A DNA stretch of 64,000 nucleotides, from positions 496,001 through 560,000 of the forward strand of contig CANMXP010000002.1 in the NCBI GenBank assembly GCA_947501845.1. The letters are read 5' to 3'. Below the pieces are notes generated by a model. The model was given only the letters and a program-made list of their open reading frames with translations. It searched no databases and had not been told where the DNA came from. The position numbers were made by a program, and so were the translations under genes. Shown here piece by piece: positions 30,252 to 54,033 of the stretch (positions are counted from its first letter, which is position 1; every line of letters starts with the position of its first letter). This stretch comes from an uncultured Flavobacteriaceae bacterium. GTDB lineage: Bacteria; Bacteroidota; Bacteroidia; Flavobacteriales; Flavobacteriaceae.

Positions 30252-30254
30252 ATT

Positions 30255-40299: not shown

Positions 40300-41031
40300 T
40301 TAAAATAAAGTCAGTTGGTTTTCTTTATTGGATGGTTTGTTTTCAGGTTTCGAAACAAGAGAAGGTTTTGACCAGATTAAGGATTGTTCTTTTTCTATTG
40401 GCACTATTCCTAATCCATTCATATTAATATGCCAGCCTCCAAACCATTCCATTGATAGCGTATTCATCCATGCAATTTCTCCTCTTAATCCATTAAGGAA
40501 GAAGTTAAGAACAGACATCTTTGCGCAGGTCGCACTTATATCGGCACCATAGAAAAAATTATCTGGATAAAGTTTAGCCGATTTAAGAAGTGTTCGCCCA
40601 GAACCGCATGCAGGGTCAAGAATACGTTTATGCTTTTGATCTTCAATATTGCTTATTTGTGCCATTAATTCACAAATATGTTCTGGAGTAAAGAACTGTC
40701 CATTTTGACCGCGTGTAATATACTCGGTAAAATATTGACCTAAAAGATCAGAATAAGGGGCGTTGTAAACCTTCATTTGTAGGATACTTAAAAGCTTTGG
40801 AAACGTATCTATGCTTTCTTTGTTATAGGGTTTTATAGTTTCTAAGTAATGTTTTTCATTGTCTTCATCTTTTTTCTGAAAACGTGATTGAATATTAGTG
40901 TGATGGTAAGCACAGATTGCAAGGGTAAGAAAATCATCAAAAATGCGATTGCGTTCATATCGTCGACTTAGAAGTTCCATATTATTAGCAAAATCTTTGT
41001 AATAGTCTTGTCGTTGAGTAGTACCAGTCAT
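40300..41031 (-). CDS. N-6 DNA methylase-like protein with missing catalytic motif
   Basis: 243 residues. SAM-binding motif I is intact (LDPACGSGR around 138-146), preceded by FFTPEHICELMA. The target-adenine motif NPPY/F that should follow is replaced by NTLSMEW (about 190-196), so methyl transfer is doubtful. A strong Shine-Dalgarno site (AAGGAG) precedes the start. The group is common on plasmids and islands, where it may act as a structural or regulatory SAM-binding protein. Confidence 0.78.
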   Translation of the reverse strand: MTGTTQRQDYYKDFANNMELLSRRYERNRIFDDFLTLAICAYHHTNIQSRFQKKDEDNEKHYLETIKPYNKESIDTFPKLLSILQMKVYNAPYSDLLGQYFTEYITRGQNGQFFTPEHICELMAQISNIEDQKHKRILDPACGSGRTLLKSAKLYPDNFFYGADISATCAKMSVLNFFLNGLRGEIAWMNTLSMEWFGGWHINMNGLGIVPIEKEQSLIWSKPSLVSKPENKPSNKENQLTLF

Positions 41032-41088
41032 TTTTATTCTCCTTCAAATGAAGAAAGAGGCATCCATTTCTGAATGCCTCGATTTGAA

Positions 41089-41457
41089 TTAATATTCGCT
41101 AGGTAACATAACCGTTAAAACACGACGTGTTTTAGAAAGGTCAGCAGGATCTTCACTGCCATATTCGTAAGTGGTATCGTAATAATCGATTTTCCAAATA
41201 ATCTTTTGCTTATTATTTTCTAATTGAAAACTGCCATAGTCGTGTTCTCCATGAGGGTCATTATCCTCATTAAAATCATTGAAGTTTCTAACCTTATTGT
41301 GTACTTCACTTTGTTTAAAAAGCCCCAAACACTGGATACCAGAAGTAACAACATACCTACCCGATGGTGTCCCTTGAATATAATCTTGTAAAGACATTCC
41401 AAAATTTTGTCGAAACATATCATTTTGTTGAGCGATGATTTCTGATTTATTAGTCAT
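41089..41457 (-). CDS. DUF3768 family protein
   Basis: 122 residues. The conserved core NDPHGEHDYGSF, then WKIDYYDTTYEYGSEDPADLSKTRRVLTVML, are the DUF3768 signature (only short parts needed: NDPHGEHD, KIDYYD, TRRVLTVML). The family is best known from proteobacterial plasmids and islands. Shine-Dalgarno AAAGGAG precedes the ATG. Function unknown; an anti-restriction or regulatory role would be a guess. Confidence 0.8.
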   Translation of the reverse strand: MTNKSEIIAQQNDMFRQNFGMSLQDYIQGTPSGRYVVTSGIQCLGLFKQSEVHNKVRNFNDFNEDNDPHGEHDYGSFQLENNKQKIIWKIDYYDTTYEYGSEDPADLSKTRRVLTVMLPSEY

Positions 41458-41483
41458 TTAATTTTCTCCTTTCAATGAGAAAA

Positions 41484-41504
41484 AAAGGGGCGTGATGCCC
41501 CTTT
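41484..41504 (-). terminator. Terminator after the 66-aa gene
   Basis: AAAGGGGC paired with GCCCCTTT around loop GTGAT, with A-tract before and T after, immediately downstream of the gene ending at 41508. Confidence 0.8.
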
Positions 41505-41507
41505 AGG

Positions 41508-41708
41508 TTATGATTGAGGGTTTGGATTTTCGCCTTTGGTTTTGTTTTCAAAAACCACCATATTGTTAAGTGAGATATTAAAACCTCCGCCTTTGGAATG
41601 TTTCCATGCGGCTCCCACTTTCACGTTATGAGATTTACCCTGAATGTAGGTTTCGACAAAAACGGTATGTGTTGGTTTTCTGCCTTTTTTTTCTGTTTTA
41701 TCTGTCAT
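41508..41708 (-). CDS. Small plasmid-type protein, 66 aa
   Basis: Starts at the ATG at 41708 (MTDKTEKKGRKPTHTVFVE) with a Shine-Dalgarno site AAAGGAG 7 bases upstream; this decides the start over a longer frame. The body has GAAWKHSKGGGFNISLNNM, a glycine-rich beta hairpin typical of small plasmid-encoded proteins of unknown function. First gene of a minus-strand series with DUF3768 and the methylase-like gene. Confidence 0.65.
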   Translation of the reverse strand: MTDKTEKKGRKPTHTVFVETYIQGKSHNVKVGAAWKHSKGGGFNISLNNMVVFENKTKGENPNPQS

Positions 41709-41730
41709 CGTTTTACTCCTTTTTTTGTTA

Positions 41731-41849
41731 ATCAGATGATGACGCGTATTAGCATCAAGGCAGAAGATATTTACCCAGAACCACACGTTTATGCGGGCCA
41801 GTGGCGGGTAAATATCTGCGTTGGTGATATAGCTTCTGAGTCATCTGAT
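41731..41849. repeat. Interrupted inverted repeat, candidate transfer origin
   Basis: ATCAGATGA (41731) pairs with TCATCTGAT (41849), and further in, AGATATTTACCC pairs with GGGTAAATATCT, with smaller matches between. The site lies between divergent gene sets and directly upstream of the MobF relaxase, where oriT is expected. A 46-codon frame through it was not accepted as a gene. Confidence 0.45.
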
Positions 41850-41944
41850 GTATCAATACGGCAAAGGAGGAATTGACAGATATGCACATAAAAACAGAAG
41901 AAAAAAAATTCATGTAAAAATTTATGTTTAAATTTATCGTTCAA

Positions 41945-41964
41945 TTGCTCTCCAACAAAACTTT
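41945..41964 (+). repeat. 20-bp repeat, copy 2
   Basis: Identical to 36754-36773. It lies 69 bp before the relaxase start; a small hairpin CCCATT/AATGGG with loop ACTCTCC (41977-41995) follows it. Confidence 0.7.
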
Positions 41965-42032
41965 TATGTGCATACCCCATTACTCTCCAATGGGATTAAA
42001 TAAAGTTTTGAATTTTACACAGTAGAGAATTT

Positions 42033-44756
42033 ATGATACGCATGTTTCAAAGCCAGACGAGTAGTCAGGCAAAGAACTATTTCCGTGATGCCTTATCGCG
42101 GTCAGATTATTATATCGAAGACCAGGAAATGAATGGGGTTTTTAATGGCAAGATATCCAAACGATTAGGGATTGAAGGGCGAATAGTTGATACAGAAATC
42201 TATGATAAACTTTGTGATAACATTAACCCGAAAGATGGTGGCTCTCTAACACCCCGTACTGTTGAAAATAGACGGGTTGGTTATGATATTAGTTTTCATT
42301 GTCCTAAATCGGTTTCAATTCTTCATGCGTTAGGTGGTGACGAGCGAGTTCTCAAAGCGTTTGAAGAAAGTGTTTATGAGACCATGCTGGAAATGGAAGC
42401 CGATATGCAAACCCGTGTCCGTGTACAAGGGCAATATGATGATCGTGATACCCCAGAATTAATTTGGGCGAGTTTTATCCATCAAACGGCTCGTCCTGTG
42501 GACGGACATCCCCCTGATCCACACTTACATTGTCACTGTTTTACTTTTAATGTGACCTATGATGAGGTTGAGAATAAATTTAAAGCAGGGCAGTTTCATA
42601 ATATCAAACGGGATATGCCCTATTATCAAGCTCGTAAAGATAAACGTCTTGCCGATAAGCTCTCAAATTTGGGGTATGAGATAAGAAAAACCAAAAATGC
42701 TTTTGAATTGGCCGTTATTCCACAAAAGGCAATTGATTTTTTTTCCAAACGAACAAACTTAATTGGGCAGGTGGCCAAAGAAAAGAATATCACGAACCCC
42801 AAAGAACTTGACCAACTAGGCGCAAAAACCCGTGCAAAAAAACAAAAAAATCTTTCGATGCCAGAACTTCGCGAAGTATGGCATGATAATTTAATTAAAG
42901 CTGGGATTGATGGAAAAACTCCCGAAGAAATCAAGTCGACGGATTTATCACATACGGCAGATAAATCTATTGATTTTGCTATAGAAAATGTCTTTACGCG
43001 TAAATCCGTCATGCGTGATAGACAGATTTTAGCCGAAGGCTATAAACACGCCGTTGATAATAAAGATATTGCCCTCGATCAAATTGATCGTGCATTAGAG
43101 AAAAACGATCAGGTTTTTAAAATTCAAGTAGGAAGCCAGAGGCTTTGCACGACACAATTAGTACATAGGCAAGAACGCAATATGATTAATTTGGCTCGTG
43201 AGGGGATAGGAAAATTTCGTCCATTAAAACATGATTTTGATGGTTCAAAGTTTAAACACCTAAATAAAGAGCAAAATCTAGTTATCAATCATGTGATGAC
43301 ATCGCAAGATCAAATTACCATGATACGCGGTGCGGCTGGCACAGGAAAAACAACCCTTTTTAAAACGCTTGTGCCTGAAATTGAAAAAACAGGTAAACAA
43401 GCTTTTTTGTTTGCACCGACTGCAGAAGCCTCTCGTGATGTTCTTCGAGGCGAAGGTTTTGAAAAAGCCGATACTGTCGCAAAACTATTGATTGATAAGA
43501 AATTGCAAGAACAAATTCACGGACAGGTGCTTATTATCGATGAGGCAGGCATGCTTGGAACGCAGGATACCTTAAAAATTCTAGAGTTAGGTAATAAAAA
43601 TAAAGCAAAGATCATTCTCTCTGGTGATCCTCGTCAGCACCCTGCTGTTTTAAGAGGGGATGCTATGAGATTGCTTCGTGATGTTGGTAAAATAGAACAA
43701 GTCTCAATAGAAACCATCTATCGGCAAAAGAATAAGACCTATAGAACGGCGGTTAAGGAAATCAGTAGCGGTAATATTAAAACTGGCTTTTCTATTCTTA
43801 ATGGTATGGGTTCAATTAAAGAAATCAACCCCACTGAAATATCCCAAAAACTCGTTGATGATTATTTAGAAACACGAAAAGAGAAAAAATCAGCTCTTGT
43901 GATTACCCCAACTCGTGAACAAATGAAAGTCATTAATGAAGACATTCGAAAGGGTTTAAAAGAAAACAAGCTTATAGGTAAGCGAGAAAAGAGTTTTACT
44001 ATTTACGAAAACCATCATCTTACCATTGCCCAAAAACAAGATACTCGATTTTATAAAAAAGATCAGACTATTCAAGCCCGTCAAAATCTACCATCTTCCA
44101 ATGGTGGCATTAAAAAAGGATCTGCATTAACAGTAAAAGAAGTCAAAAACAGCCAAGTTATTATTACAGACCGTGGGGGTAGAGATCATATCCTGCCAAC
44201 ACAAAAGGCAAAGGATTATGATCTCTATAGCGCAAAAAATATTAGTTTAAGCAAGGGCGATGAAATTCGTATTGTCAATAAAAACGGCTTTGATGAGCAA
44301 GGCAAACGTCTTGATAGCAAAACTACCCTAAAAGTTAGTGGATTTACTAAAGAGGGGCATATTAAAGCGATTAAGCAATCAGAAAATAGGAATACTGAAT
44401 TTATCTTAAACAAAGAGCATGGCAATTTTGAATATGCCTATGCTATCACGTCGTATAGTTCTCAAGGAAAAACAGTTGACAAAATTATTATTTCCCAACC
44501 AGCAACAACCTTTTTAGCGTCGAATGAGAAACAGTTTTACGTGTCGGTTTCAAGAGGTCGGGATGATGTTTCGATCTATACCGATGATAAAGAAGAATTA
44601 CTAACCTATATAGAAAGGCATGGAGATAGGCAGGGAGCAACGGAATTGATTAAAACAGGACTAATGCCACTAAAAGAATTTGAGTTAGAAAAACCAAAAT
44701 ATAAGGAGGTAGAACCAATAAAAACAATCGATATAGATTATGAGCCAGACCTATAA
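42033..44756 (+). CDS. MobF family relaxase-helicase (TrwC/TraI-like)
   Basis: 907 residues. Relaxase domain (about 1-330): catalytic Tyr candidates Y16, Y26 and Y27 and the metal triad H164/H166/H168 in DPHLHCHCF. Helicase domain (about 390-850): Walker A GAAGTGKTT near 433, Walker B LIIDEAGML near 500, then a TSYSSQGKTVD motif and SVSRGRDDV at the end. It nicks and unwinds the element at oriT for transfer. It is slightly shorter than R388 TrwC (966). Codon use and GC look higher than the host. Confidence 0.93.
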   Translation: MIRMFQSQTSSQAKNYFRDALSRSDYYIEDQEMNGVFNGKISKRLGIEGRIVDTEIYDKLCDNINPKDGGSLTPRTVENRRVGYDISFHCPKSVSILHALGGDERVLKAFEESVYETMLEMEADMQTRVRVQGQYDDRDTPELIWASFIHQTARPVDGHPPDPHLHCHCFTFNVTYDEVENKFKAGQFHNIKRDMPYYQARKDKRLADKLSNLGYEIRKTKNAFELAVIPQKAIDFFSKRTNLIGQVAKEKNITNPKELDQLGAKTRAKKQKNLSMPELREVWHDNLIKAGIDGKTPEEIKSTDLSHTADKSIDFAIENVFTRKSVMRDRQILAEGYKHAVDNKDIALDQIDRALEKNDQVFKIQVGSQRLCTTQLVHRQERNMINLAREGIGKFRPLKHDFDGSKFKHLNKEQNLVINHVMTSQDQITMIRGAAGTGKTTLFKTLVPEIEKTGKQAFLFAPTAEASRDVLRGEGFEKADTVAKLLIDKKLQEQIHGQVLIIDEAGMLGTQDTLKILELGNKNKAKIILSGDPRQHPAVLRGDAMRLLRDVGKIEQVSIETIYRQKNKTYRTAVKEISSGNIKTGFSILNGMGSIKEINPTEISQKLVDDYLETRKEKKSALVITPTREQMKVINEDIRKGLKENKLIGKREKSFTIYENHHLTIAQKQDTRFYKKDQTIQARQNLPSSNGGIKKGSALTVKEVKNSQVIITDRGGRDHILPTQKAKDYDLYSAKNISLSKGDEIRIVNKNGFDEQGKRLDSKTTLKVSGFTKEGHIKAIKQSENRNTEFILNKEHGNFEYAYAITSYSSQGKTVDKIIISQPATTFLASNEKQFYVSVSRGRDDVSIYTDDKEELLTYIERHGDRQGATELIKTGLMPLKEFELEKPKYKEVEPIKTIDIDYEPDL

Positions 44757-45168
44757 ATTTAAAAGCTTAGAAATTGCCAAAGATGATCAGAAAAACAAAC
44801 AAGCCGAAAAAGACCCAAATGGTATAACGGTTTTTGAAATAGGAGATACTCGCACCATCGATTTTATTTTAAAAGATGGAACACGACAATGTTTTCTCTA
44901 TTCCCACATGCTCACCAGTTGGCTCGGCAAAGATGGCAACACAGAAAAAAAAGAACGAGTTATAAAAATATTCTTCGCCACGCATTTGATAACAATTAAA
45001 GGCTATTGCTTAGATGAAATTTACAACACTCTCACAACCTTATCCGTCAAATCTATCAAATCCCACGATGAACGCTACGCCGATATGGTCGCAGAAGACC
45101 AAGCTTTTGTTACGGATATTAATGTGAGCTGGAAAAAGGAAGAGAACGATAATGTAAATAACAGTTAA
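44740..45168 (+). CDS. Hypothetical protein coupled to the relaxase
   Basis: 142 residues, start overlaps the end of the relaxase gene by 17 bp. Central part FILKDGTRQCFLYSHMLTSWLG and KIFFATHLITIKGYCLDEI look like a compact alpha/beta domain. No family recognised, but the overlap implies a partner role in mobilization or a linked regulatory protein. Confidence 0.6.
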   Translation: MSQTYKFKSLEIAKDDQKNKQAEKDPNGITVFEIGDTRTIDFILKDGTRQCFLYSHMLTSWLGKDGNTEKKERVIKIFFATHLITIKGYCLDEIYNTLTTLSVKSIKSHDERYADMVAEDQAFVTDINVSWKKEENDNVNNS

Positions 45169-45171
45169 GCT

Positions 45172-45393
45172 TCACTTTTCTTTCTTTTTCTTCTTTTTTT
45201 TTGAAGGTTTTTTGTTTACCTCAATTCCATTGCGGGATATTCGGAAGCTTTTAATATTTTTATCTTTTTTGATAATTCTCAAAACGATAAACTCTTTGAT
45301 GATTCTCCAAAATATAAATACAACTAAAGCAAAGACTAATAGAGAGACTTCTTCGTTAGAAATAAATTTTAATATTTTGGTTAATTTTTTCAA
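45172..45393 (-). CDS. Lys-tail mini-membrane protein, copy 1
   Basis: 73 residues with a TTG start (45391-45393) at the same aligned position as the ATG of copy 2. Layout: amphipathic start KLTKILKFISNEE, one span (about 16-36, VSLLVFALVVFIFWRIIKEF), KSFRISRNGIEV, then a tail of Lys (KKKKKKK). The same pattern recurs at 45760 and 48358. It is convergent with the relaxase-coupled gene. Function unknown. Confidence 0.6.
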   Translation of the reverse strand: MKKLTKILKFISNEEVSLLVFALVVFIFWRIIKEFIVLRIIKKDKNIKSFRISRNGIEVNKKPSKKKKKKKEK

Positions 45394-45759
45394 TATATAT
45401 CTATTTAAAAAACAAGCGAATACGTTCGACTAATTGGTCAAACGATTTCGTTTAATAATAATATAGATATTTAAAAAAAATTAAAAAAAGATGCAACCTA
45501 TACTGACTAAAAGGCTGTATCGCAGTATTAGTAAATGTAATAAAAATTAAATTATAGACAAAATATTTTTACAAAAAGAAATAGAACTAAACAAAGTCGT
45601 ATCATTTTTTAATATTGAGTAGATACTCAATATTGTAGCAATGAAAGATGATATTAAAATTGTTTGATCTACCATTATGCTAAAATATTAGTTTTTAACA
45701 AAAGTTTTATTATTGATATAAAATGAATTGAAAAGAGAAAAGAATGGTATTAATAATTT
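45394..45759. other. 366-bp AT-rich spacer between copies 1 and 2
   Basis: No gene is seen. It contains the upstream region of copy 1, with a short imperfect palindrome around CGTTCGACTAATTGGTC (45424-45440) and an AAGCGAATAC motif that is also found upstream of copy 2 (46037-46046). Confidence 0.4.
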
Positions 45760-45990
45760 CTAGGTTTCGCTTTTGCTTTCCTTTTTTTTCTTTTTCTTAC
45801 TTTTTTTTCTTACCTCAATTGATCCAAGATGAGATATTCGGAAGCTTTTAATCTTTTTATCTTTTTTGATTATTAATAATATTGTTAATTCCTTAAAGAT
45901 TCTCCAAAATATAAATACAACTATAGAAAAGACTAATAGAGAGATTTCGTCGTTAGAAATAAATTTTAAAAATGTAAGTAGCTTTATCAT
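45760..45990 (-). CDS. Lys-tail mini-membrane protein, copy 2
   Basis: 76 residues from the ATG at 45990 (MIKLLTFLKFISNDE), which aligns exactly with the TTG starts of the other copies; an upstream TTG extension is rejected. Span about 17-37 (LLVFSIVVFIFWRIFKEL), then DKKIKSFRISHLGSIEV and the poly-Lys tail ending ESKSET. It lies 223 bp downstream of the synthase gene on the same strand. Confidence 0.65.
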   Translation of the reverse strand: MIKLLTFLKFISNDEISLLVFSIVVFIFWRIFKELTILLIIKKDKKIKSFRISHLGSIEVRKKSKKKKKKESKSET

Positions 45991-46213
45991 CCCATAAATC
46001 AATTTATAAATAATACAGCGCTTTTGATTATTAATCAAAGCGAATACATAATACCTAATTCTCCTTTTTAGGTATTATAAATTGAATATTTGGGCACTTC
46101 TCTGTAGCAATGTAATAAAAACCATTCAATATTACAAGATTTTTAATATGTCTATTAATGCATTTACAATCTCAAAACATTTTAGTTTTACACAAAGTAA
46201 ATTAGTAACAGGT

Positions 46214-46903
46214 CTATTTTAAGTTGGAAGCAATTCTTGTTTCAACTTTTTGACGGACAAAAAAGCTTTTTTCTAAACCCATACGCCCATATCTCTCTCG
46301 TAAAAATTGTTCTGCTTGTAATTGTTGGGCTGGGTATGCTTGTACCATTTTGCCATTACCTTTTTGCCATTCTCTTTGTGCCATATAGCTGTGTACGGCA
46401 AATTCTTCTATCAGAAAGGCGACACCATTTTGAAGATCATGTGCATTGTCGTTATCCTCGAGTTGTCGAGAAACCCAACGTTTGGCATCTAAATCGACAC
46501 AAGCCTTGAAAGGCTCTTTTGTTTGATAAAGATCGTATAATTTTGATTGAAGGTCTTTTACTTTGGTTAACCCTAGCCATTTATCCCAACGACAAACCTC
46601 ATGAGAAATGCTCAATTCTTGAAGCACGTTATCATTATCTGCAAGCCATTTTTTACCCATAGCAAGTGATTTTTGATAAGCTTCTTTTTTAGAGCATCCC
46701 TGATTTGCCAAATTATGACGTTGCAAACTATCGGACACATTTACAATACAGTGGTCAAAATTAGTATTAACCCATTTGATCATCGCTTTAAGCTTATCAC
46801 CTGTTTGATTAGGATTGTTCATACTAATATTAAGGCTACATACCCTAGCACCCGTTTGGCTCGCTGAGGGTTTTGCTTTGATTTTATAATGTTTTTGTTC
46901 CAT
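46214..46903 (-). CDS. Putative tRNA-dependent cyclodipeptide synthase
   Basis: 229 residues, the usual CDPS length. A nucleophile-type motif SLNISMNN (Ser27, Asn30) aligns with the GIS-x-GN motif of AlbC; a helix pair CSKKEAYQKSL follows; GVAFLIEEFAV (F163, E167) aligns with the Tyr178/Glu182 region, with Tyr replaced by Phe; and MVQAYPAQQLQAEQFL aligns with the late CYH/xYP motif. CDPSs join two aminoacyl groups from tRNAs into a diketopiperazine. The start is 10 bp after the XRE gene stop with AGGTG as ribosome site. No tailoring enzyme is nearby. Family assignment is by motif reading only. Confidence 0.72.
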   Translation of the reverse strand: MEQKHYKIKAKPSASQTGARVCSLNISMNNPNQTGDKLKAMIKWVNTNFDHCIVNVSDSLQRHNLANQGCSKKEAYQKSLAMGKKWLADNDNVLQELSISHEVCRWDKWLGLTKVKDLQSKLYDLYQTKEPFKACVDLDAKRWVSRQLEDNDNAHDLQNGVAFLIEEFAVHSYMAQREWQKGNGKMVQAYPAQQLQAEQFLRERYGRMGLEKSFFVRQKVETRIASNLK

Positions 46904-46913
46904 TAAAAATCAC

Positions 46914-47552
46914 CTACTCATATGTTTCTGGGGCTGTGGTTTTTGTTGGCGCTTCGTAAATTTCCCAAAATTGATTGAAAATATTACGCCAAATTTCGGC
47001 TTGGTTACGGTCACGAATAACCATTGCCTTAGTATTGTTATCTAGCATAGTCGCAACCTTATCACCGAAAATGACGACATTGTAATTGTTGTAATGTTGA
47101 CCAGATATGTAACGATATTCTTTTAAGGGGTAAAGGAGGTGTGTATCACCCTCGCGAACCATAGAACGGACATTAGCAATCTTTCTAATACGGCTTTCAG
47201 CGTTAATAACTTCTTGGGAAGACAGAGAGTTATCAATAAACATATAAAGTAGTTCGCCGCTTTTTTCTTTTAACGTATGATAAACATCATCGAGAAGTTT
47301 TAAATAAAAATCCTTACCGTCATAGATAGTAATAGTGTCTTGACGAAAACGGACACCTTCGCCATCTAAAAACTCAATACCGTGATCTGAAAAAACGTTA
47401 TAAATGGTTTCAAGGTTTTTTTGTTTTGGTTGAACACGGTTTTGCTCAAAGGATCGGATTGTTGGTGTTTTAACACCAACAGCATCCGCCAAATCATCTT
47501 GCGACCATTCCAATAGATTGCGTGCATTACTGCACTGTTTTCCTGTTATCAT
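46914..47552 (-). CDS. XRE-type regulator with large sensor-like C-terminal domain
   Basis: 212 residues. The helix-turn-helix (about 8-60) includes WSQDDLADAVGVKTPTIRSFE and NRVQPKQKNLETIYNVF. The rest (70-205) ends with VIFGDKVATMLDNNTKAMVIRDR and NIFNQFWEIYE, resembling the PLD-like effector domain of TrmB-type regulators. It lies upstream of the synthase gene in the same transcript and has a consensus-like promoter with almost no leader, as autoregulators often do. It probably controls the synthase. Confidence 0.8.
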   Translation of the reverse strand: MITGKQCSNARNLLEWSQDDLADAVGVKTPTIRSFEQNRVQPKQKNLETIYNVFSDHGIEFLDGEGVRFRQDTITIYDGKDFYLKLLDDVYHTLKEKSGELLYMFIDNSLSSQEVINAESRIRKIANVRSMVREGDTHLLYPLKEYRYISGQHYNNYNVVIFGDKVATMLDNNTKAMVIRDRNQAEIWRNIFNQFWEIYEAPTKTTAPETYE

Positions 47553-47559
47553 GATTCGG

Positions 47560-47589
47560 ACTATATCAGAAAATATTACTATTAGTCAA
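47560..47589 (-). promoter_or_regulatory. Sigma70-like promoter of the XRE/synthase operon
   Basis: On the minus strand: TTGACT (47589-47584), 18 bp, TATAGT (47565-47560), then only 7 bp to the ATG, so the mRNA would be leaderless. The -35 overlaps the 14-bp motif TACTATTAGTCAAT (47577-47590), which recurs upstream of the mini-membrane copy 3, and a TACTATTA/TTAATAGTA inverted repeat extends over 47577-47610. Confidence 0.6.
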
Positions 47590-47662
47590 TAAATTAATAT
47601 TAATAGTAAATAGTATTAATTGTAATACTGTACGTTAAAAATATTAATAATGATATTTTCTC

Positions 47663-47691
47663 TTGACATATGGAATACGATTCGGTAATAT
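47663..47691 (+). promoter_or_regulatory. Consensus sigma70 promoter
   Basis: TTGACA (47663-47668), exactly 17 bp, TAATAT (47686-47691). This is a near-perfect proteobacterial promoter, not the Bacteroidota type. It faces the small genes at 47764 and 48097 and diverges from the XRE gene. A CCCGA/TCGGG hairpin lies in the leader (47709-47730). Confidence 0.7.
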
Positions 47692-47763
47692 CCAAATTGT
47701 GAGGTTGCCCGAGCTTAATATTATCGGGTTTGTGAAAAGATTACTTTTGTGAGGAAAGAAACT

Positions 47764-47922
47764 ATGACACCCCAACAAACAATGGCTCTTAGAGCCAATG
47801 AAAATGACGAATTTAACTTTTATGCAATGGAGCGTATTTATGAAAAGGGTTTAGACCCTTTCAAGACACAAGATTTGTATGAAAGATATGTCCGTCGGGT
47901 TTGTCGTAAAAAATCCGCATAG
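47764..47922 (+). CDS. Small protein, 52 aa
   Basis: Begins MTPQQTMALRANENDEFNFY and ends VRRVCRKKSA, with a Shine-Dalgarno GAGGAAAG upstream. It is helical and basic at the end. First gene behind the consensus promoter, possibly a plasmid regulatory peptide. No family recognised. Confidence 0.6.
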   Translation: MTPQQTMALRANENDEFNFYAMERIYEKGLDPFKTQDLYERYVRRVCRKKSA

Positions 47923-48096
47923 ACTAAATTTTTACCTAAAATAGGTTCATACGGAGCGTGTCCCTGCTTTCCTGTTATCAACGACGGTATGTGTTCCCTT
48001 GCGCTTATTTCAGACGAGACATGGCTGGCGTTATTCGTTTCTCAACAGCCATGTCTCACTCACACTTTTTTAAACAAAAACAAGTGAGGAAAACTA

Positions 48097-48291
48097 ATGA
48101 CTAATAATAACGATGACGATTTTGACAATGAAACTCCATTAGATAGCGCTTTTGATGCTGTTGAGGACTTTGATGAGGAAGTGGATTTAGACCCACACCT
48201 TAAACGTGCTTTACGAAACCTAACCACTGGGATCGATGAACTTAAAAAAGCAATGCGAAAACGTGGCTTGCTTCCTATTGGAAAGCATTAA
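48097..48291 (+). CDS. Small acidic protein, 64 aa
   Basis: Very acidic first half (MTNNNDDDFDNETPLDSAFD) and a basic helix at the end (GIDELKKAMRKRG). Shine-Dalgarno GAGG 8 bases upstream. A perfect 16-bp terminator follows. The charge pattern suits a partner or inhibitor of a basic DNA- or RNA-binding protein, but that is a guess. Confidence 0.6.
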   Translation: MTNNNDDDFDNETPLDSAFDAVEDFDEEVDLDPHLKRALRNLTTGIDELKKAMRKRGLLPIGKH

Positions 48292-48315
48292 GAAATTCGC
48301 TAAACGGTGTTAATG

Positions 48316-48349
48316 AAGAACAGTAGCCTTATTTAAGGCTACTGTTCTT
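48316..48349. terminator. Bidirectional terminator
   Basis: AAGAACAGTAGCCTTA and its exact complement with a two-base gap (in practice a smaller stem with a larger loop). It lies between the plus-strand small genes and the minus-strand mini-membrane copy 3. Confidence 0.85.
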
Positions 48350-48357
48350 AAAACAAT

Positions 48358-48591
48358 TCACTTTTCTTTCTTTTTCTCTTTTTTTGTAGAAGTTTTTTTG
48401 TGTATCTCAATTGAGCCAAGACGAGACATTCGGAAGCTTTTAATCTTTTTGTCCTTTGCGATAATTCTCAAAATTATCAACTCTTTGATGATTCTCCATA
48501 ATAAAAACATGATGAAAGAAATGATTATTAGATAATTTAATAACGGTTCTTTGTTGGAAGTAAATTTCAGTATTTTAATCAATTGTTTCAA
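48358..48591 (-). CDS. Lys-tail mini-membrane protein, copy 3
   Basis: 77 residues with a TTG start in the aligned position (KQLIKILKFTSNKE). Span about 17-40 (NYLIIISFIMFLLWRIIKEL), then AKDKKIKSFRMSRLGSIEI and a lysine-rich tail. It is about as diverged from copies 1 and 2 as they are from each other. Its upstream region shares TACTATTAGTCAAT with the XRE/synthase operon. Confidence 0.62.
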   Translation of the reverse strand: MKQLIKILKFTSNKEPLLNYLIIISFIMFLLWRIIKELIILRIIAKDKKIKSFRMSRLGSIEIHKKTSTKKEKKKEK

Positions 48592-48689
48592 TTATAAGTA
48601 TTTAAATTCCTACTATTAGTCAATCTTTGCAATTTTTTGAGTTAAGCTTTGCAAGCTATGAAATAAGGAAATTTAAATACTTATAATTG
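48589..48689. repeat. 22/23-bp inverted repeat upstream of copy 3, with shared 14-bp motif
   Basis: The arm at 48589-48610 is an inverted copy of 48667-48689 with one single-base indel. The loop holds TACTATTAGTCAAT (48611-48624), which on the minus strand gives TTGACT (-35-like) 17 bp before TACTTA. The arm contains the copy 3 start codon, so folding of the transcript could hide or expose it. Confidence 0.6.
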
Positions 48690-48825
48690 AAAAGGCAATC
48701 TAAATTAATAGTAGCCATTTCGAAGTACGAGCAATATAGTAAAAACAAAATAAAATACTTACTAGTTTTGTGTTTTATTCTTACGAAGCTGTATCTTGTA
48801 TACTTTATTTTTACCCAATATACTG

Positions 48826-49428
48826 ATGAACACATGTGATAGCTGTGGTCGATATACAAGACCCAATACAGATTTATGCCTACTATGTCTTAAAGAGCAA
48901 AACTCTAAGCCTTATCCAAAACGATATTTTGAAGAGAAACCGATAAACTATGTTAAAGGGCATATAGGGGAAGCCTTAATTCAAAATCTATTTTCAAGTC
49001 AGGGCTTTATGGTTCTTAAATATGGAATTGAGAATAACCTAACTTTTTTAAGTGAATTTCTAAGCGAAGATGATTTAACTTCTGCAGAAATTACTTTTAT
49101 TAAAAACCGTCCAGATTTAATGGTTTTAAATCCAGTTAAACGAAAACTCTATTTTATTGAAGTTAAATACACCTCTAAAGGAGTGATTTCTCTTGATACA
49201 TTTAGCGATGAGTACCCATATAATAGTTGCTATATGATTGTAATATCTAAAGATGTTTTTCGATGTGTTAAAGTAAAAGACTTTAAGGCATTTGAAAAAA
49301 AAGAAGATATATTAAATGATGATTATCTTTTAAGGGATAATGAAGAGTTTAATCTAGATAAAGGATTAGTCTCTCTATTTGAAAACAATGCTAACGGCAT
49401 TTATAATGCAATATCTAAACTGAATTAG
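48826..49428 (+). CDS. PD-(D/E)XK nuclease-like protein with N-terminal zinc ribbon
   Basis: 200 residues from the ATG at 48826. A zinc ribbon is formed by CDSC near 4-7 and CLLC at 18-21. The nuclease core shows KGHIGEALIQNLFSSQGF and then RPDLMVLNPVKRKLYFIEVKY, that is D...E-x-K. Such orphan nuclease folds occur in restriction and defence or in recombination. No methylase or helicase is adjacent. A very strong shared terminator follows. Confidence 0.68.
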   Translation: MNTCDSCGRYTRPNTDLCLLCLKEQNSKPYPKRYFEEKPINYVKGHIGEALIQNLFSSQGFMVLKYGIENNLTFLSEFLSEDDLTSAEITFIKNRPDLMVLNPVKRKLYFIEVKYTSKGVISLDTFSDEYPYNSCYMIVISKDVFRCVKVKDFKAFEKKEDILNDDYLLRDNEEFNLDKGLVSLFENNANGIYNAISKLN

Positions 49429-49433
49429 TTTTA

Positions 49434-49478
49434 AAATGCAAAGAAGAAATAAAACAGCTTTATTTCTTCTTTGCATTT
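49434..49478. terminator. Bidirectional terminator, 20-bp stem
   Basis: A perfect 20-bp stem with five-base loop ACAGC between convergent genes (stop at 49428 plus, stop at 49483 minus). Confidence 0.9.
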
Positions 49479-49482
49479 AGTT

Positions 49483-50328
49483 CTATTTTTCTTTTTTTGG
49501 TTTGGGGATTGAGTCATTTATCTTAGAATTTGTTTCATCCCTCACTCTTATACGGTCTTCTTCTGTCAGTCCTTGTTTTTTACTTCCATCTTTCTTGGTA
49601 TATGCAAGGATAAATTCTTCAATGACTTCTTTTTTAATACCTAAACCTTGAAATATTGATAGTATTTTATTAAGCTCTTGATATGTCTTATATTCATATT
49701 TAGTTTTTTCAACATTCGCTGTAAACTCCTTTGTTTGGAGGTCTTGAGCAGTTTCAATTATAGAACAAAAAATTGTCTCATTTAAGTTATGATTAAAAAC
49801 ACCTTCATTCATTCGATAGCCTAATGTTCTTACAATGTTAAGTGTTTCAGATTTCTTAGTTAAAGAACTAACAGCACTTAAGTAACTTGATGCTAAGTTT
49901 GCACTTGCATTTGCACTATCTCCTTTATTAGCTTTGATAAAACCTTGAAATGCACTTGTGACTTCATATGCAATATCAGGTTGTTCCTCTGCTAAATATC
50001 TAGGTCTAAAAGTTGGAGTGCCAGCTTTTGTTAGATAAGTCTCATATGTTGAAATCCCTACTCTTTTTGATGCATCAAAAAAATGTGCTGACAGAGAGGC
50101 ATAAGACGGCGAACTTTTAATTAGTTTTTTATTACTCTCATTGTTTTTCTCTGACGTGTCAGAAATATCATAATCTTTATTTTCGATTTTGATAAATTTT
50201 GAATTTACTGTACCCGCGCTTACATTTTTACCAAATTCAGATTTGTCAGGGCTAAAAAGGGATTCTAAACTAGAACAGTTAGTGAATAATAATGAAGCTA
50301 AAAGAAGGGGTGAAATAATTTTTTTCAT
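49483..50328 (-). CDS. Hypothetical lipoprotein
   Basis: 281 residues with lipobox LFTNC (Cys18) and a charged, Lys-rich mature part. Segments such as SASANLASSYLSAVSSLTKKSET suggest a helical bundle. It is downstream of a secreted protein gene (50796-50344) by 15 bp; together they look like a two-gene cell-envelope cassette. No family recognised. Confidence 0.65.
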   Translation of the reverse strand: MKKIISPLLLASLLFTNCSSLESLFSPDKSEFGKNVSAGTVNSKFIKIENKDYDISDTSEKNNESNKKLIKSSPSYASLSAHFFDASKRVGISTYETYLTKAGTPTFRPRYLAEEQPDIAYEVTSAFQGFIKANKGDSANASANLASSYLSAVSSLTKKSETLNIVRTLGYRMNEGVFNHNLNETIFCSIIETAQDLQTKEFTANVEKTKYEYKTYQELNKILSIFQGLGIKKEVIEEFILAYTKKDGSKKQGLTEEDRIRVRDETNSKINDSIPKPKKEK

Positions 50329-50343
50329 AATTAAGGATTTAAA

Positions 50344-50796
50344 TTAATAACTAAACCAAGAAACGGTTAATGCAACACAAGCCATTTGTTTACCAGTCAT
50401 ATTAACAAGTGCCGTATTGAACATTTTTTCAAAATCATTCATTACTTTTTGTCTTTCTTTGGTATTTTCAGTTCCTTCAATAAGAAAATTTTTGATTAAT
50501 TCTATTGCCGCAAACGGAGGAACAAAATCAGTGTCTTTTATAGCAATAATACCTGTAAAATAATCACCATCTCGATATATTTTCAATTTTGTTGTATATC
50601 CTTCATAAAAAATATCAGCAAGAACATAGTCTGAATAAACAGAATATTGGCCGCTTGAATAAGTATTTGTAGGATGTGCTAAACCTGCTAATAATGTAAC
50701 TCCTTCGTATTTAAAAAAGTTATCCATACTTTGTGTAAAACATGTATTCACAAAAAGGATTGAGCAAGTAAGAAATAAAAATAAGTGCTTTTTCAT
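50344..50796 (-). CDS. Hypothetical secreted protein
   Basis: 150 residues with a signal peptide (1-21, NTCFTQ). The mature part is beta-rich (SSGQYSVYSDYVLADIFYEG) and ends with a hydrophobic CVALTVSWFSY. First gene of the pair with the lipoprotein at 49483. Function unknown. Confidence 0.62.
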   Translation of the reverse strand: MKKHLFLFLTCSILFVNTCFTQSMDNFFKYEGVTLLAGLAHPTNTYSSGQYSVYSDYVLADIFYEGYTTKLKIYRDGDYFTGIIAIKDTDFVPPFAAIELIKNFLIEGTENTKERQKVMNDFEKMFNTALVNMTGKQMACVALTVSWFSY

Positions 50797-51130
50797 CGAT
50801 TAGGATTTAATTAGACAAATAACATTTTTAAATAAAAGGCTATTAATTAAATCGTCTATCAGAGAATTTTCAAAAGAAAAATTTGATAATGCGATGAATA
50901 AACTAGGGAGGATTCAAATATATAAAAAATAATTAACTTGTAGTCAAAGACTTATATTATTTTAATTACATAAGTGGTTTCTTCAAAAGTAAATTAAGTG
51001 AAAATGTTTTTGTTGAGGAATAAGTTGATAAACCGATTCACTTTTTTAGCAAAATATGCTATACTCTAGCCAGATCCTTAGCCAAAAGAGTTTTTGAGAA
51101 TTTGGTAAACGCTGTAAGTGTTGAGTTAAG

Positions 51131-51175
51131 TGGTGCCGGTTGTCGGACTTGAACCAACGACCTACTGATTACAAA
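51131..51175 (-). repeat. Relic of tRNA-Thr 3' half, likely att site of the P4-type integrase
   Basis: Read on the minus strand, 45 bases give the anticodon loop TTTGTAA (TGT), ATCAG stem, variable region, T arm GTTGG-TTCAAGT-CCGAC and acceptor AACCGGCA-CCA. The 5' half is absent. CCA is encoded, which is normal for Gammaproteobacteria and not seen in the host tRNA-Ala here. It lies 99 bp before the integrase start. Confidence 0.82.
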
Positions 51176-51273
51176 CGAACTTTGTGTGCATTTTATAATC
51201 GCCTCTGAATTCTTAAAACACCCCTTAGCTATTGATTAAACTATTAATTTTATCATTTGGAGGGTGCAGTATC

Positions 51274-52770
51274 ATGCACAAGAATTCACAAAATAACACG
51301 TCAAACCTTAGCCAAATCCTTGACCAAAAAGAGAATAGAAATATAAGGAAAATACGGTTTACTGAACTTACTGTAAAACATTTAAAGCCTCTTAGCAAGC
51401 GAACCATTTTTTGGTTTGAAGGAATGATGGGATTCGGTCTAAGGGTTTCCCCAAAGGGAAGAAAAACGTGGATATATGTTTTCCAATTTGACAATAAACC
51501 TCGGATGCTGACTTTAGGTAAATATCCTAAAATGTCTTTAAGTGAAGCACGTATTGCTTATTCTAAAGCCGTATATAAAACGGATTTGGAAATAGACCCT
51601 GCAAAAGAAAAGACAAAAGAAAATGAACAGGAATTAAAAGCTCCAACGGTAGAAGATTTGAGTCTTAAATATATCAAATACTGCATTGCCAAAAAAGAAG
51701 CTTCATGGAAAGAAAAGCAACGAGCCATCAATAAAGAGCTTTTACCTATTATTGGAGATAAAAAGGTAAAAGACATTACTTTTAGAGATATTGCCCCAAT
51801 TATAAATAATATTCACATTGAAAGAAAAGCGACAACACAAGCACAAAGGTTATTATCACATACACGGTGTATGTTCAAATATGCTAAGAATGGTCTTGGT
51901 TTGATTGAAATTAACCCTTGTTCTGACCTTGAAGCTCCAAAAAGGCAGAAAAAACCAAAATATGCCTTGGACACAAAAGACATCTACCGTTTTTGGAATA
52001 ATATAGATTATACGTTTATGAAGCCCGTTGTTCGATTAGGGTTAAAATTTATGTTTTGTACTCTCGCTAGAGGTGTTGAAGTACGAAAAATGAAATGGAG
52101 CGATATTAACTTTGGTGATAAAACATGGTTTATTCCTTCTGAAAATGCAAAAAATAATAAAGCAATGCTCCTACCTTTGAATAGTTATGCACTAACAATT
52201 TTAAAAGAGATATATCAATATACTGGTCACTCTGATTTTGTCTTTGGCTGGAATAGATCTTTGAATTCAGGGCAACAACTATTGGACAAACAAGAAATGA
52301 TACCAATGGGTGTAACAGCGTTTAGTCATGCTTTAAGAGATAACTTTGAACTTCTGCATATCGAAAGAAAATTTACGCCACATGATCTGAGACGTAGTAG
52401 TGCAACCTGTTTAACAAGTGTAGGCTACCCAAGAGAATGGGTCAGCAAATTACTTAACCATACGCCAAATAATGTCACGTCAATGGTCTATGATGTTTTT
52501 GATTACTTTGAGGAAAAAAGGGCAGGAATGGAATCGATTAGATATATTCTTGATAGAATATTATCAGCAAAAAGTGTTGACCTTGTTCCATCCCTGCGTG
52601 CCATTAGAAAAGAGTTTTTATCTCAAAAACTTATTTATCAGTTTCTTGATGAGGCTTATTTTGAGCCTCAGAAGTCTGTCGATAATTCACAGGGCTTTCA
52701 ATCCAGTTTTGTAAATCCTGTATCTTATACCCTTTCCTACGACCATGATGAGTTAAAGAATGAAGCTTAG
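51274..52770 (+). CDS. P4-type tyrosine integrase (DUF4102 arm-binding)
   Basis: 498 residues from the ATG at 51274, chosen because GGAGGG lies about 10 bases upstream; a longer TTG frame is less likely. N-terminal arm-binding domain includes RVSPKGRKTWIYVFQ and TLGKYPKMSLSEAR; catalytic R in ARGVEVRKM, HDLRR, LLNH and Tyr in MVYD. The P4/IntS family targets tRNA genes of Proteobacteria. It is a second integrase inside the element, next to the tRNA-Thr relic. Its C-terminus overlaps the AlpA-like gene on the other strand by 140 bp. Confidence 0.88.
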   Translation: MHKNSQNNTSNLSQILDQKENRNIRKIRFTELTVKHLKPLSKRTIFWFEGMMGFGLRVSPKGRKTWIYVFQFDNKPRMLTLGKYPKMSLSEARIAYSKAVYKTDLEIDPAKEKTKENEQELKAPTVEDLSLKYIKYCIAKKEASWKEKQRAINKELLPIIGDKKVKDITFRDIAPIINNIHIERKATTQAQRLLSHTRCMFKYAKNGLGLIEINPCSDLEAPKRQKKPKYALDTKDIYRFWNNIDYTFMKPVVRLGLKFMFCTLARGVEVRKMKWSDINFGDKTWFIPSENAKNNKAMLLPLNSYALTILKEIYQYTGHSDFVFGWNRSLNSGQQLLDKQEMIPMGVTAFSHALRDNFELLHIERKFTPHDLRRSSATCLTSVGYPREWVSKLLNHTPNNVTSMVYDVFDYFEEKRAGMESIRYILDRILSAKSVDLVPSLRAIRKEFLSQKLIYQFLDEAYFEPQKSVDNSQGFQSSFVNPVSYTLSYDHDELKNEA

Positions 52771-52945
52771 GAAAACGCCTTGCTTTTCTTATCCGATATT
52801 GAGTTGTTTTATCGAGTGTTGTTAAAATCTCTGCTGTTTTGATGGATGCAAAACCATTCATTTCTAATAGCAACCCAATTACGATTTCTTTTTCCTGATC
52901 TGGGTCAATCAAAATAACACCATTATTTTCAATCGTCTTAATCAT
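52631..52945 (-). CDS. AlpA-like DNA-binding protein
   Basis: 104 residues from the ATG at 52945 with AAGGAAA ahead. The pattern ILTTLDKTTQYRIRKARRFP and GYKIQDLQNWIESP is the AlpA/Cox-like excisionase form. Such proteins sit beside P4-type integrases and regulate excision. Its last 46 codons are antisense to the 3' end of the integrase gene. Confidence 0.78.
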   Translation of the reverse strand: MIKTIENNGVILIDPDQEKEIVIGLLLEMNGFASIKTAEILTTLDKTTQYRIRKARRFPKLHSLTHHGRRKGYKIQDLQNWIESPVNYRQTSEAQNKPHQETDK

Positions 52946-53133
52946 CGTCTTATTTCCTTTTTGAGTGAACAATGAGAAAGGGTTTATATTGTTTTTAAAA
53001 AATGAACTATGCACAGAAAAACTTTATTTATAAAACACTTAGGTGTGTATTAAATACCATAAAATAGATTTTTGTGTGCATACTATGTACTGCTCCGAGG
53101 TTTTAAAAAACCATAAAACAACGGAGAAAAACA

Positions 53134-53394
53134 ATGGTAAATATGCGGTTTGATTATCCCTCAAAAACACGTGATGATTTTTTAAAAGAGGTTGTATCTC
53201 TATTAAGAAATAAACGAATTGAAATGAAAATATCTCAGCAAGAATTAAATCATAGGTTAGGAATGGCTGATTTTTTAGTCACAAAATGGGAAAATGGTAT
53301 ACGAACCCCTCTAGCATATCATCTCTATTGCTGGGCGGATGCTTTGGATAGTAAACTGACTATAGTTGACAATACGTCGTCAGAACCAATTTAA
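53134..53394 (+). CDS. XRE family helix-turn-helix protein
   Basis: 86 residues. HTH: VVSLLRNKRIEMKISQQELNH and LGMADFLVTKWENGIRTP. Ribosome site GGAG just upstream. It is divergent from the AlpA-like gene, so it may act as the repressor of the integrase/AlpA module. Confidence 0.8.
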   Translation: MVNMRFDYPSKTRDDFLKEVVSLLRNKRIEMKISQQELNHRLGMADFLVTKWENGIRTPLAYHLYCWADALDSKLTIVDNTSSEPI

Positions 53395-53607
53395 GAAATA
53401 AAAAAATCGGTTAATGATAATGCTTTTGATTATTCAAAATAAGAATATTGAAACTAATATTCAAAAAATAACTCCTTCAAAAATTAGAGAGGTGTAATTT
53501 GTATATTTTTTTGTCGAGATTGTTTATAATGCTGAACATAACACTATGACAGAATTAAGAATTTTTAGAACAGGTCGTTTGTTAGATAAATATACTATAC
53601 TAAGATG

Positions 53608-53892
53608 TTAACCATATATTATGCTGTAATCTTGAACGTACTTACTTATTAAACTATAAGTGTTTTTATTAGTTTTTAATTTCACATTGCGCTTAAAAGT
53701 GTCCAAGCCAAAAATATCAATAAACTTTCCAATTGAAGAGTTAAGAAAAGAAGATGAAAGATTTAAAGAACCGTTGAGTTCAATTAACACTTGATCGGAA
53801 ACAGCATTATCGCTCAAATAAGAATATAAAATATCCCCATCATTATTTGATGATGTTTTTTGAGTGATATTAAAAATGTTAATCGTTTTCAT
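53608..53892 (-). CDS. STAS-like DUF4325 protein
   Basis: 94 residues from the ATG at 53892 (MKTINIFNITQ). Core ELNGSLNLSSSFLNSSIGKF matches the DUF4325 STAS-like pattern, where a Ser/Thr-rich helix start follows a beta strand. The upstream gene is a GHKL ATPase, so the pair may work as an anti-sigma/anti-anti-sigma-like or switch module. They are separated by a tandem repeat. Confidence 0.62.
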   Translation of the reverse strand: MKTINIFNITQKTSSNNDGDILYSYLSDNAVSDQVLIELNGSLNLSSSFLNSSIGKFIDIFGLDTFKRNVKLKTNKNTYSLISKYVQDYSIIYG

Positions 53893-53939
53893 GACTTCAT
53901 GTATATGATGCAAATATACGTATAATTTATGTTTTAGCC

Positions 53940-54027
53940 ATGTTTTACCCGTATTATATCGATGTTTTACCCGTGTTATATCGATGTTTTACCCGTGTTA
54001 TATCCATGTTTTACTCATGTTTACCGA
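53940..54027. repeat. Tandem repeat, 22-bp unit, about four copies
   Basis: Units at 53940-53961, 53962-53983 and 53984-54005 are nearly the same (ATGTTTTACCCGTGTTATAT plus two bases), followed by a degenerate one to 54027. It lies in the only gap between the GHKL and STAS-like genes, upstream of the latter, where it could set expression by copy number. Confidence 0.85.
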
Positions 54028-54033
54028 ATTGTT

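Follow-up and report, generated by a model that had tools for sequence, protein, structure and literature searches.

What is a putative cyclodipeptide synthase (CDPS) gene, preceded by a regulator of its own, doing inside a mobile island? The question is raised by two adjacent genes of the window (i.e., the whole 64,000-nt stretch analyzed here), which a preliminary description had grouped, together with three copies of a tiny membrane protein, into one regulated set. All ORFs were confirmed at the positions given there. Our preferred answer, to which we assign a probability of roughly 50%, is that the two genes form an exchangeable, autoregulated CDPS cargo cassette of tRNA-integrating mobilizable islands, most likely serving conflict. 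We favor this reading because of the CDPS fold, the linkage of the two genes at four loci, the unit-like sequence identities of the pair, the purifying selection acting on it, and a motif core found at two sites.

The host is a Flavivirga species with a genome of 5.37 Mb, and the pair lies within an integrated mobilizable island (28065..57426) bounded by a 50-bp direct repeat that represents the 3' end of tRNA-Ala (copies at 28065-28114 and 57377-57426). The island encodes a MOBF/TrwC-type relaxase as part of its backbone (42033..44756, plus strand; PF08751, 199 bits; 60-83% identity in four related islands) and a TraD/TraG-like protein, which, together with the tRNA repeat, bears out the earlier proposal of a mobilizable element. 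Since two integrase genes are present inside (51232-52770 and 55924-57237), the island may be composite. The cargo slot is delimited on its left edge by a 142-aa backbone ORF (44740..45168, plus strand) found in all five islands compared, and on its right edge by a small backbone ORF (47749..47922, plus strand) conserved in the F. jejuensis locus (L008) and in locus L026; a small acidic backbone ORF (48097..48291, plus strand) shows 72% identity in L008. A family-model scan of the window slot proteins gave no tailoring enzyme, in line with the preliminary description, and no transporter or exporter. Among the proteins of the island there is also a Pfam AbiV match, for which no PADLOC model matches.

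The second gene of the pair (46214..46903, minus strand) encodes an XYP-type CDPS based on family models, sequence, and predicted fold. Its product scores 48.0 bits against TIGR04539 (cut-off 45) and 27.3 bits against PF16715 (cut-off 27), and retrieves 5ocd from the PDB by sequence (E = 2.3e-15). Foldseek with the predicted structure also returns 5ocd (E = 4.7e-14, TM 0.79); the first 48 of its best 50 matches are CDPSs, and the HUP/class-I aaRS-like fold of these enzymes is present. The identity proposed from the letters alone was thus confirmed, and a spurious assignment is ruled out by the 5ocd sequence match, the TIGR04539 score, and the fold. Aligned to the CDPSs of the PDB, the equivalents of S37, E182, and Y202 (S27, E167, and Y190) are invariant in the four intact CDPSs, that is, those of the window, F. 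jejuensis, Croceivirga, and Phycisphaerales, as is the XYP-subfamily proline equivalent to P203 (Y190-P191). The exception is the equivalent of Y178, which is Phe (F163) in 4/4 vs. Tyr in 5ocd, 5mlq/9i5m, and 9j61; PMC5935735 describes the activity of AlbC Y178F as substantially impaired. Phe at this catalytic position makes normal CDPS activity uncertain, and we do not claim such activity; the window protein is a CDPS by family and fold, an assignment that we keep because the fold, the models, and three of the four catalytic positions agree with it. The TIGR04539 and PF16715 scores of the partners are 55.0 and 26.8 bits (Croceivirga), 41.4 and 19.8 bits (Phycisphaerales), and 26.9 and 13.8 bits (F. 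jejuensis). Accordingly, two of the four intact proteins exceed the TIGR04539 cut-off and one exceeds that of PF16715, with Croceivirga the only partner to clear one of the two (TIGR04539), and the assignment of the Phycisphaerales and F. jejuensis proteins rests on their similarity to the window protein.

The first gene (46914..47552, minus strand) encodes an XRE-family regulator (HTH_3, 28.8 bits; cut-off 23) with a possibly TrmB/PLD-like C-terminal half. Its HTH is controller-protein-like (4yba, E = 4.1e-10; PADLOC Control_protein, E = 6.8e-9), and the only PADLOC models that the regulator matches are generic ones for HTH or control proteins. For the C-terminal half, no family match above cut-off was obtained, nor any to a Pfam TrmB family. 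The structure model is of moderate quality (pTM 0.54), and the Foldseek matches listed for it include TrmBL2 at E = 1.7e-4, but with TM 0.26 and rmsd 22, as well as the PLD nuclease Nuc (E = 0.022, TM 0.30). Therefore, the XRE part of the earlier assignment stands, whereas the TrmB-like half, with its weak Foldseek matches, is plausible but not proven. Both genes of the pair are under purifying selection, with dN/dS of about 0.12 for the regulator and about 0.11 for the CDPS (dS saturated in both cases).

The XRE/CDPS operon is probably transcribed from a leaderless promoter, as judged from the sequence. The predicted promoter (47553..47590, minus strand) contains the 14-bp motif ATTGACTAATAGTA at 47577-47590, overlapping the -35 box TTGACT, and in three of three islands 6-7 nt separate the end of the best -35/-10 pair from the ATG. 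The scores of these pairs relative to shuffles (147, 253, and 453 of 2000) leave no single pair clearly better. A second exact copy of the 14-mer, as previously reported, lies at 48611..48624 (minus strand), 19 nt before the start codon of the third copy of the mini-membrane gene. The 13-bp core of the motif, TTGACTAATAGTA, has only these two sites in the 5.37-Mb genome (the XRE promoter and upstream of copy 3), vs. zero occurrences of the reversed core used as control. A shared string of at least 14 bases between the XRE upstream region and those of the three mini copies was obtained in 24 of 4000 shuffles, and a motif match as good was obtained in 1812, 141, and 0 of 2000 shuffles for copies 1, 2, and 3, respectively. 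A motif common to all three copies is ruled out, as copies 1 and 2 have no significant match and only copy 3 does. No significance was obtained for a palindrome that would connect the XRE motif with the upstream regions of copies 1 and 2.

The three mini-membrane proteins flank the pair on both sides: copy 1 at 45172..45393 (TTG start likely), copy 2 at 45760..45990 (ATG at 45990; a longer ORF opens at 46038), and copy 3 at 48358..48591 (TTG start likely), all on the minus strand. They are single-span and diverged, as had been noted, with the two other copies showing 74% and 64% identity to copy 1, and their dN/dS values (0.34, 0.37, and 0.27) make them look like genuine genes. A second tiny membrane ORF of 42 aa (45547..45675, minus strand) is related to L008 12180-12344 (56% over 32 aa). 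The suggestion that the minis belong to the same set as the pair survived only within Flavivirga, where copy 3 has the motif and a second Flavivirga genome (G005) has two mini copies beside a truncated CDPS. No match to the mini proteins was found in the F. jejuensis genome (G007) or among the ORFs of at least 35 aa in the fetched Croceivirga locus, whose slot was also scanned. As a general part of the system, the minis are thus rejected, given that they were not found with these two pairs, and they are, by this sequence comparison, an optional Flavivirga addition. The upstream blocks of the G005 mini genes are partly conserved. Elsewhere, a distant mini-protein relative occurs in a genome without a CDPS match (G010), and a family search of 249 genomes gave six further weak matches (E = 6.7e-5 to 0.0086), five of which carry internal stop codons, the sixth being locus L018 of genome G520. 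Three weaker matches elsewhere in the window's own genome (E = 0.025 to 0.81) were not counted.

The partnership of regulator and CDPS itself was upheld. At all four intact loci (window, F. jejuensis, Croceivirga, and Phycisphaerales) the two genes are adjacent with the regulator first, at a spacing of 2-10 nt or with an 8-nt overlap. A scan with the two regulators alone gave two new loci, those of Croceivirga and Phycisphaerales, and a CDPS was directly next in both (locus L028 is the same as the F. jejuensis locus L008 and was counted once). HTH-only regulator matches were left out of the counts. The islands of F. jejuensis and Croceivirga carry the same relaxase family with the pair. XRE and CDPS identities are 75% and 63% between window and Croceivirga, and 38% and 31% between window and F. 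jejuensis, whereas relaxase identity runs in the opposite direction (60% and 83%, respectively). Because the identities of the two genes agree with each other and conflict with that of the relaxase, the pair seems to travel as a unit. TraD also conflicts with the relaxase (84% between F. jejuensis and Croceivirga, both about 50% to the window), and the islands are mosaic.

The cassette is very rare. It was found in two of 60 relatives, own genome included, and samples of the order (1/395 genomes), the phylum (1/395), and the Phycisphaerales genome's own phylum (1/392) gave query genomes only, on which ground a wide distribution was rejected; copies that are diverged or truncated may escape such searches, and the one of 60 relatives missed the G005 fragment. 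Plasmid matches to the CDPS are distant (four records in each search), including those on Ca. Endohaliclona plasmids, and plasmid matches to the regulator cover residues 1-127 at most (best 20 of 270) or, in three further cases, reach residue 92 at most. Genome contigs searched with a single CDPS sequence gave no lead, and neither did viral contigs (queries A1, A2, A3, A6, and A7) or phage records. Plasmids bearing the nearest relaxases were inspected and left out of the comparison.

Two related islands carry defence genes in place of the pair, which is absent from the stretches fetched: L033 carries CBASS, and L034 carries QatA/QatB as well as a PPDK_N protein and unassigned ORFs. The Phycisphaerales pair adjoins Cas9 and Cas1, and a type IIG restriction gene is present in L026. 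Nearness to defence genes does not by itself prove a defence role, and the CDPS matched zero families in PADLOC, i.e., none of its anti-phage systems.

How, then, might the pair act? The arrangement at the four intact loci, i.e., adjacency on one strand as a predicted two-gene operon with a DNA-binding partner, is that of type II toxin-antitoxin modules. It is conceivable, if unlikely, that the CDPS is a toxin that consumes specific aminoacyl-tRNAs and stalls translation, with the XRE protein as antitoxin and repressor and the minis as unrelated passengers. The close or overlapping regulator-first order, the HipB/HigA-like HTH matches of the regulator, the location on mobile islands, and a C-terminal regulator tail (PTKTTA..TY) kept in the window, Croceivirga, and Phycisphaerales would all fit addiction of this kind. 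However, the F. jejuensis regulator has no such tail, and the window regulator exceeds the usual length of antitoxins, with a second half that is folded in the model. Further, E. coli has served as expression host in product assays of known CDPSs, according to the methods of PMC5816076.

CDPSs have been studied as metabolite enzymes, and a role as ordinary small biosynthetic cargo, making a metabolite or signal that is secreted or diffuses and is used in competition or communication without immune or addiction role, is a comparably doubtful alternative. The distant CDPS of the Ca. Endohaliclona plasmids and the GNAT acetyltransferase gene located some 0.8 kb away from the Croceivirga pair are compatible with it, and a survey of CDPS clusters (PMC5767969) suggests signalling for some products and reports N-acetyltransferases as frequent near CDPSs. 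Against it stand the window slot, with neither tailoring enzyme nor exporter among the proteins scanned, and the defence genes of L033 and L034. Slightly more doubtful appears the proposal that the pair is the core of an undescribed mobile-island conflict system, in which the CDPS would be the enzyme that is triggered. Either its cyclic dipeptide or the drain of aminoacyl-tRNA would then signal immunity or addiction, with the tiny membrane proteins as co-regulated effectors or protectors. Finally, the Phe shared by 4/4 members at the Y178 position, together with the role of Y178 in AlbC, might mean that the CDPS has little or no catalytic activity and serves as an aminoacyl-tRNA-binding sensor feeding the regulator. 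We consider this very unlikely given that the remaining catalytic residues and the XYP proline are retained in 4/4 and that the gene is under purifying selection, but the natural Tyr-to-Phe change does pose a clean enzymology question.

We thus return to the autoregulated cargo cassette, for which we infer the following mode of action. The XRE protein would determine when and how strongly the operon is expressed by acting on its own promoter, which is probably leaderless and whose -35 box overlaps the operator that the protein would bind; its possibly TrmB/PLD-like half would be the likely sensor. The CDPS would join the residues of two aminoacyl-tRNAs into a cyclic dipeptide, in a slot that offers no tailoring gene. 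Mini-membrane copy 3 is probably a further target of the regulator in the Flavivirga of the window; this protein may have been added to the cassette as an accessory (a target, transporter, or protection protein). The conflict use would be island retention, rival inhibition, or phage arrest, through either the cyclic dipeptide product or the drain of charged tRNA. A CDPS with its own regulator, exchanged among islands that have immune-carrying relatives, would tie the CDPS family to conflicts of mobile elements, and the cassette, being small and recurring in flavobacterial and planctomycete lineages, is directly testable in E. coli.

We found no description of an XRE-CDPS mobile cassette in the part of the open-access literature that was searched, and PMC10132079 names CDPSs and toxin-antitoxin as general possibilities only. 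Compared with the XYP CDPSs of Fluoribacter dumoffii (5ocd) and Nocardia brasiliensis (5mlq/9iam), the window enzyme has the same fold (TM 0.75-0.80), the Ser nucleophile, and the Glu182 and Tyr202-Pro203 equivalents; unlike them, it has Phe for Tyr178, an XRE partner, and a place on a mobilizable island in a slot where no tailoring genes were found. C-protein operons have the regulator first, a motif at the -35 box, and a leaderless start. The window operon resembles that of C.Kpn2I (4yba) in its HTH, its regulator-first order, its -35 motif, and its probable leaderless start, but its regulator has the extra half and precedes a CDPS rather than a restriction enzyme. The likeness of this half to TrmB/TrmBL2 is a weak one of predicted fold, and the HTH is of XRE type, unlike that of TrmB proteins. 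The closest counterparts among the islands are those with CBASS (L033) and Qat (L034), which have the same relaxase (65-66% identity) and backbone but known defence genes as cargo. If the conflict-system reading were true, the pair would represent a cyclodipeptide counterpart of CBASS in the same kind of island.

The gene for an XRE regulator (46914-47552(-)) and the downstream gene for a predicted cyclodipeptide synthase (CDPS; 46214-46903(-)) form a pair so rare that every conclusion has to be drawn from four intact loci and one fragment. The first recurrence found was in Flavivirga jejuensis, where both genes lie side by side, separated by 2 nt. Searching genome contigs with a profile built from the two regulators gave three loci (F. 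jejuensis again, one in a Croceivirga MAG and one in Phycisphaerales UBA7800), and a CDPS gene lies downstream of the regulator in both new loci (10 nt apart in one, overlapping by 8 nt in the other). The window and Croceivirga share 75% identity in XRE, 63% in CDPS and 60% in the relaxase, vs. 38%, 31% and 83%, respectively, between the window and F. jejuensis, whose small ORF is 63% identical. That is, the XRE and CDPS identities are consistent with each other but run contrary to the relaxase, and the pair seems to move as a unit. This reading, which is based on pairwise identities, is qualified by the mosaic nature of the islands: F. jejuensis and Croceivirga share 84% identity in TraD, each being about 50% identical to the window, and a 142-aa backbone ORF (44740-45168(+)) is about equally distant across all three. 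NG86 dN/dS between the window and Croceivirga was about 0.11 for CDPS and 0.12 for XRE, with dS saturated.

The genome containing the window (5.37 Mb) belongs, we infer from its kinship to F. jejuensis KACC 14158, to a Flavivirga species. The pair lies within an integrated island whose ends are marked by a direct repeat of 50 bp from the tRNA-Ala 3' end (28065-28114 and 57377-57426), and these boundaries, together with a TrwC-type relaxase and a TraD/TraG-like protein inside, bear out the mobilizable element of the preliminary description. Since there are two tyrosine recombinase genes, one beside the right repeat copy (55924-57237) and one further inside (51232-52770), the island may be composite. 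Near its right end, the product of 55111-55896(-) matches AbiV (HEPN) of Pfam at 81.3 bits and no PADLOC model. Four tandem 22-bp repeats (53932-54019) lie between ORFs 53608-53913 and 54034-54927.

A common backbone links five islands: those of the window, F. jejuensis and Croceivirga, and two related ones (L033 and L034) from a relaxase search that matched 4 of 299 family genomes, including the window's own, the fourth being distant. The pair stands beside the 142-aa ORF in the first three islands; the 19-20 kb fetched of L033 and L034 contain no XRE-CDPS. In L033, a SMODS cyclase and an S_4TM effector form a CBASS pair, flanked by tRNA-Met on one side and, judged by eye, an integrase-like ORF on the other. 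In L034, the 142-aa ORF is followed by a PPDK_N protein, unassigned ORFs, and QatA and QatB; any further Qat genes would lie beyond the fetched part. Between tRNA-Met and the integrase of the Croceivirga island lies a gene for a type IIG restriction enzyme, and the Phycisphaerales pair, at a contig end, is followed by an integrase-like ORF (by eye) and, at 3299-10764 of that locus, by Cas9, Cas1, a Cas2-like ORF and a repeat array (the last two by eye, the array in reading frames). The co-occurrence with defence genes is suggestive. Two proteins of 392 and 354 aa in L033 (6582-9365), membrane-anchored by eye and without Pfam or PADLOC match, lie around the 142-aa ORF, at the place that XRE-CDPS takes up in other islands.

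The CDPS assignment, proposed from sequence alone, held under both profiles, clearing TIGR04539 (48.0, curated cut-off 45) and, barely, PF16715 (27.3, cut-off 27). Among its partners, only Croceivirga passes TIGR04539 (55.0; Phycisphaerales 41.4, F. jejuensis 26.9), and all three fall under the PF16715 cut-off. Solved CDPS structures match the window protein by sequence (5ocd, E 2.3e-15) and also match a profile of four relatives (9i5m, E 3.4e-31); the AlphaFold2 model (pLDDT 80.9) has the CDPS fold, its top structural matches being CDPSs (5ocd, E 4.7e-14, TM 0.79). The equivalents of Ser37, Glu182 and Tyr202, with roles described in PMC13062777 and PMC5935735, and Pro203 (the XYP mark) are unchanged in all four intact CDPSs, whereas each of the four has Phe at the position of Tyr178 (window F163). 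In AlbC, the Y178F substitution causes a substantial impairment of both activity and formation of the aminoacyl-enzyme (PMC5935735); in the Nocardia brasiliensis complex, the equivalent Tyr stacks on A76 (PMC13062777). A Phe could presumably still stack in this way. Therefore, catalytic activity is likely but not safely assumed. The sponge symbiont Ca. Endohaliclona has a distant CDPS gene, annotated as hypothetical, on its plasmid (L023, 5872-6684), next to a gene for a putative sensor histidine kinase and two that bear the names RenA and RenB.

The regulator has an HTH_3 domain whose best match is the C.Kpn2I controller (4yba, E 4.1e-10). Its C-terminal half, described earlier as a TrmB-like sensor, scored over the cut-off of no family; with a model of pLDDT 76.6 and pTM 0.54, Foldseek returned TrmBL2 (E 1.7e-4, TM 0.26) and PLD nuclease Nuc (E 0.022, TM 0.30), and a TrmB-like sensor half is plausible only. 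The 14-bp motif ATTGACTAATAGTA (reverse strand) is exact at both sites reported. One site overlaps the -35 part of the XRE promoter; the other lies upstream of the third of three tiny membrane protein genes (48358-48591(-)), 19 nt away from its start codon. Across the five intergenic stretches compared at the locus, no other 14-mer is directly repeated; the 13-bp core of the motif occurs twice in the genome, both times here, and 24 of 4000 shuffles reached such a match. Upstream of XRE, the top-scoring promoter pair (-35, 17-18 nt, -10, 6-7 nt, ATG) is arranged alike in 3 of 3 islands; the letters differ, as expected if each regulator had its own site, and the individual scores are not exceptional. 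An AT-rich inverted repeat with exact 23-bp arms (48586-48608 and 48670-48692) spans the upstream region of the third copy and its motif.

The first copy (45172-45393(-)) shares 74% and 64% identity with the other two, of which the second lies at 45760-45990(-), and all three evolve as coding genes (dN/dS 0.34, 0.37 and 0.27). The family occurs in 3 of 12 Flavivirga genomes, with three copies in the window, two in G005 (E 2e-24, 2e-29) and one in G010 (E 1.4e-7, 33% identical); 249 sampled family genomes gave six further weak matches, five with internal stops. In G005, a CDPS fragment missed by the protein search of relatives (142-aa frame, profile positions 85-193 of 221, 66.6 bits) precedes the two copies on the same strand. 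It is named by neither Pfam nor NCBIfam, lacks Glu at the aligned Glu182 position and is truncated 5' at the end of a 216-bp repeat, and no regulator match was found in that genome. A 29-aa remnant of the 142-aa ORF (E 2.6e-5) lies between the two copies, suggesting a related island of this type that has since decayed. Two ~216-bp repeats with inverted ends, 96% identical and MITE-like, bracket this truncated CDPS and the two copies, next to tRNA-Met (L045, 8278-8495 and 9991-10206). The proposed three-gene set recurs as the XRE-CDPS pair, with no match to the mini family in the F. jejuensis genome or at the Croceivirga locus, and tiny membrane genes, which tend to surround the pair in Flavivirga, are therefore not required. 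Other tiny membrane ORFs lie in the F. jejuensis slot, and one of them is related to ORF 45547-45675 of the window.

Our preferred hypothesis is that the pair is a CDPS cassette that is autoregulated, can be exchanged and takes part in conflict, where the product, the sensing and the conflict role are inferred. Alternatively, the synthase might act in addiction by draining aminoacyl-tRNA, or serve as a sensor built on a dead enzyme, or the pair might be plain metabolite cargo, in line with a GNAT acetyltransferase gene that lies about 0.8 kb from the Croceivirga pair (8685-9215(-) of that locus, with the integrase on one side and the small backbone ORFs on the other). With respect to known systems, titles, abstract openings and passages of the open-access literature revealed no paper on an XRE-CDPS mobile cassette; the CDPS enzyme family is known, and the regulator-CDPS mobile unit is, as far as that literature shows, undescribed.
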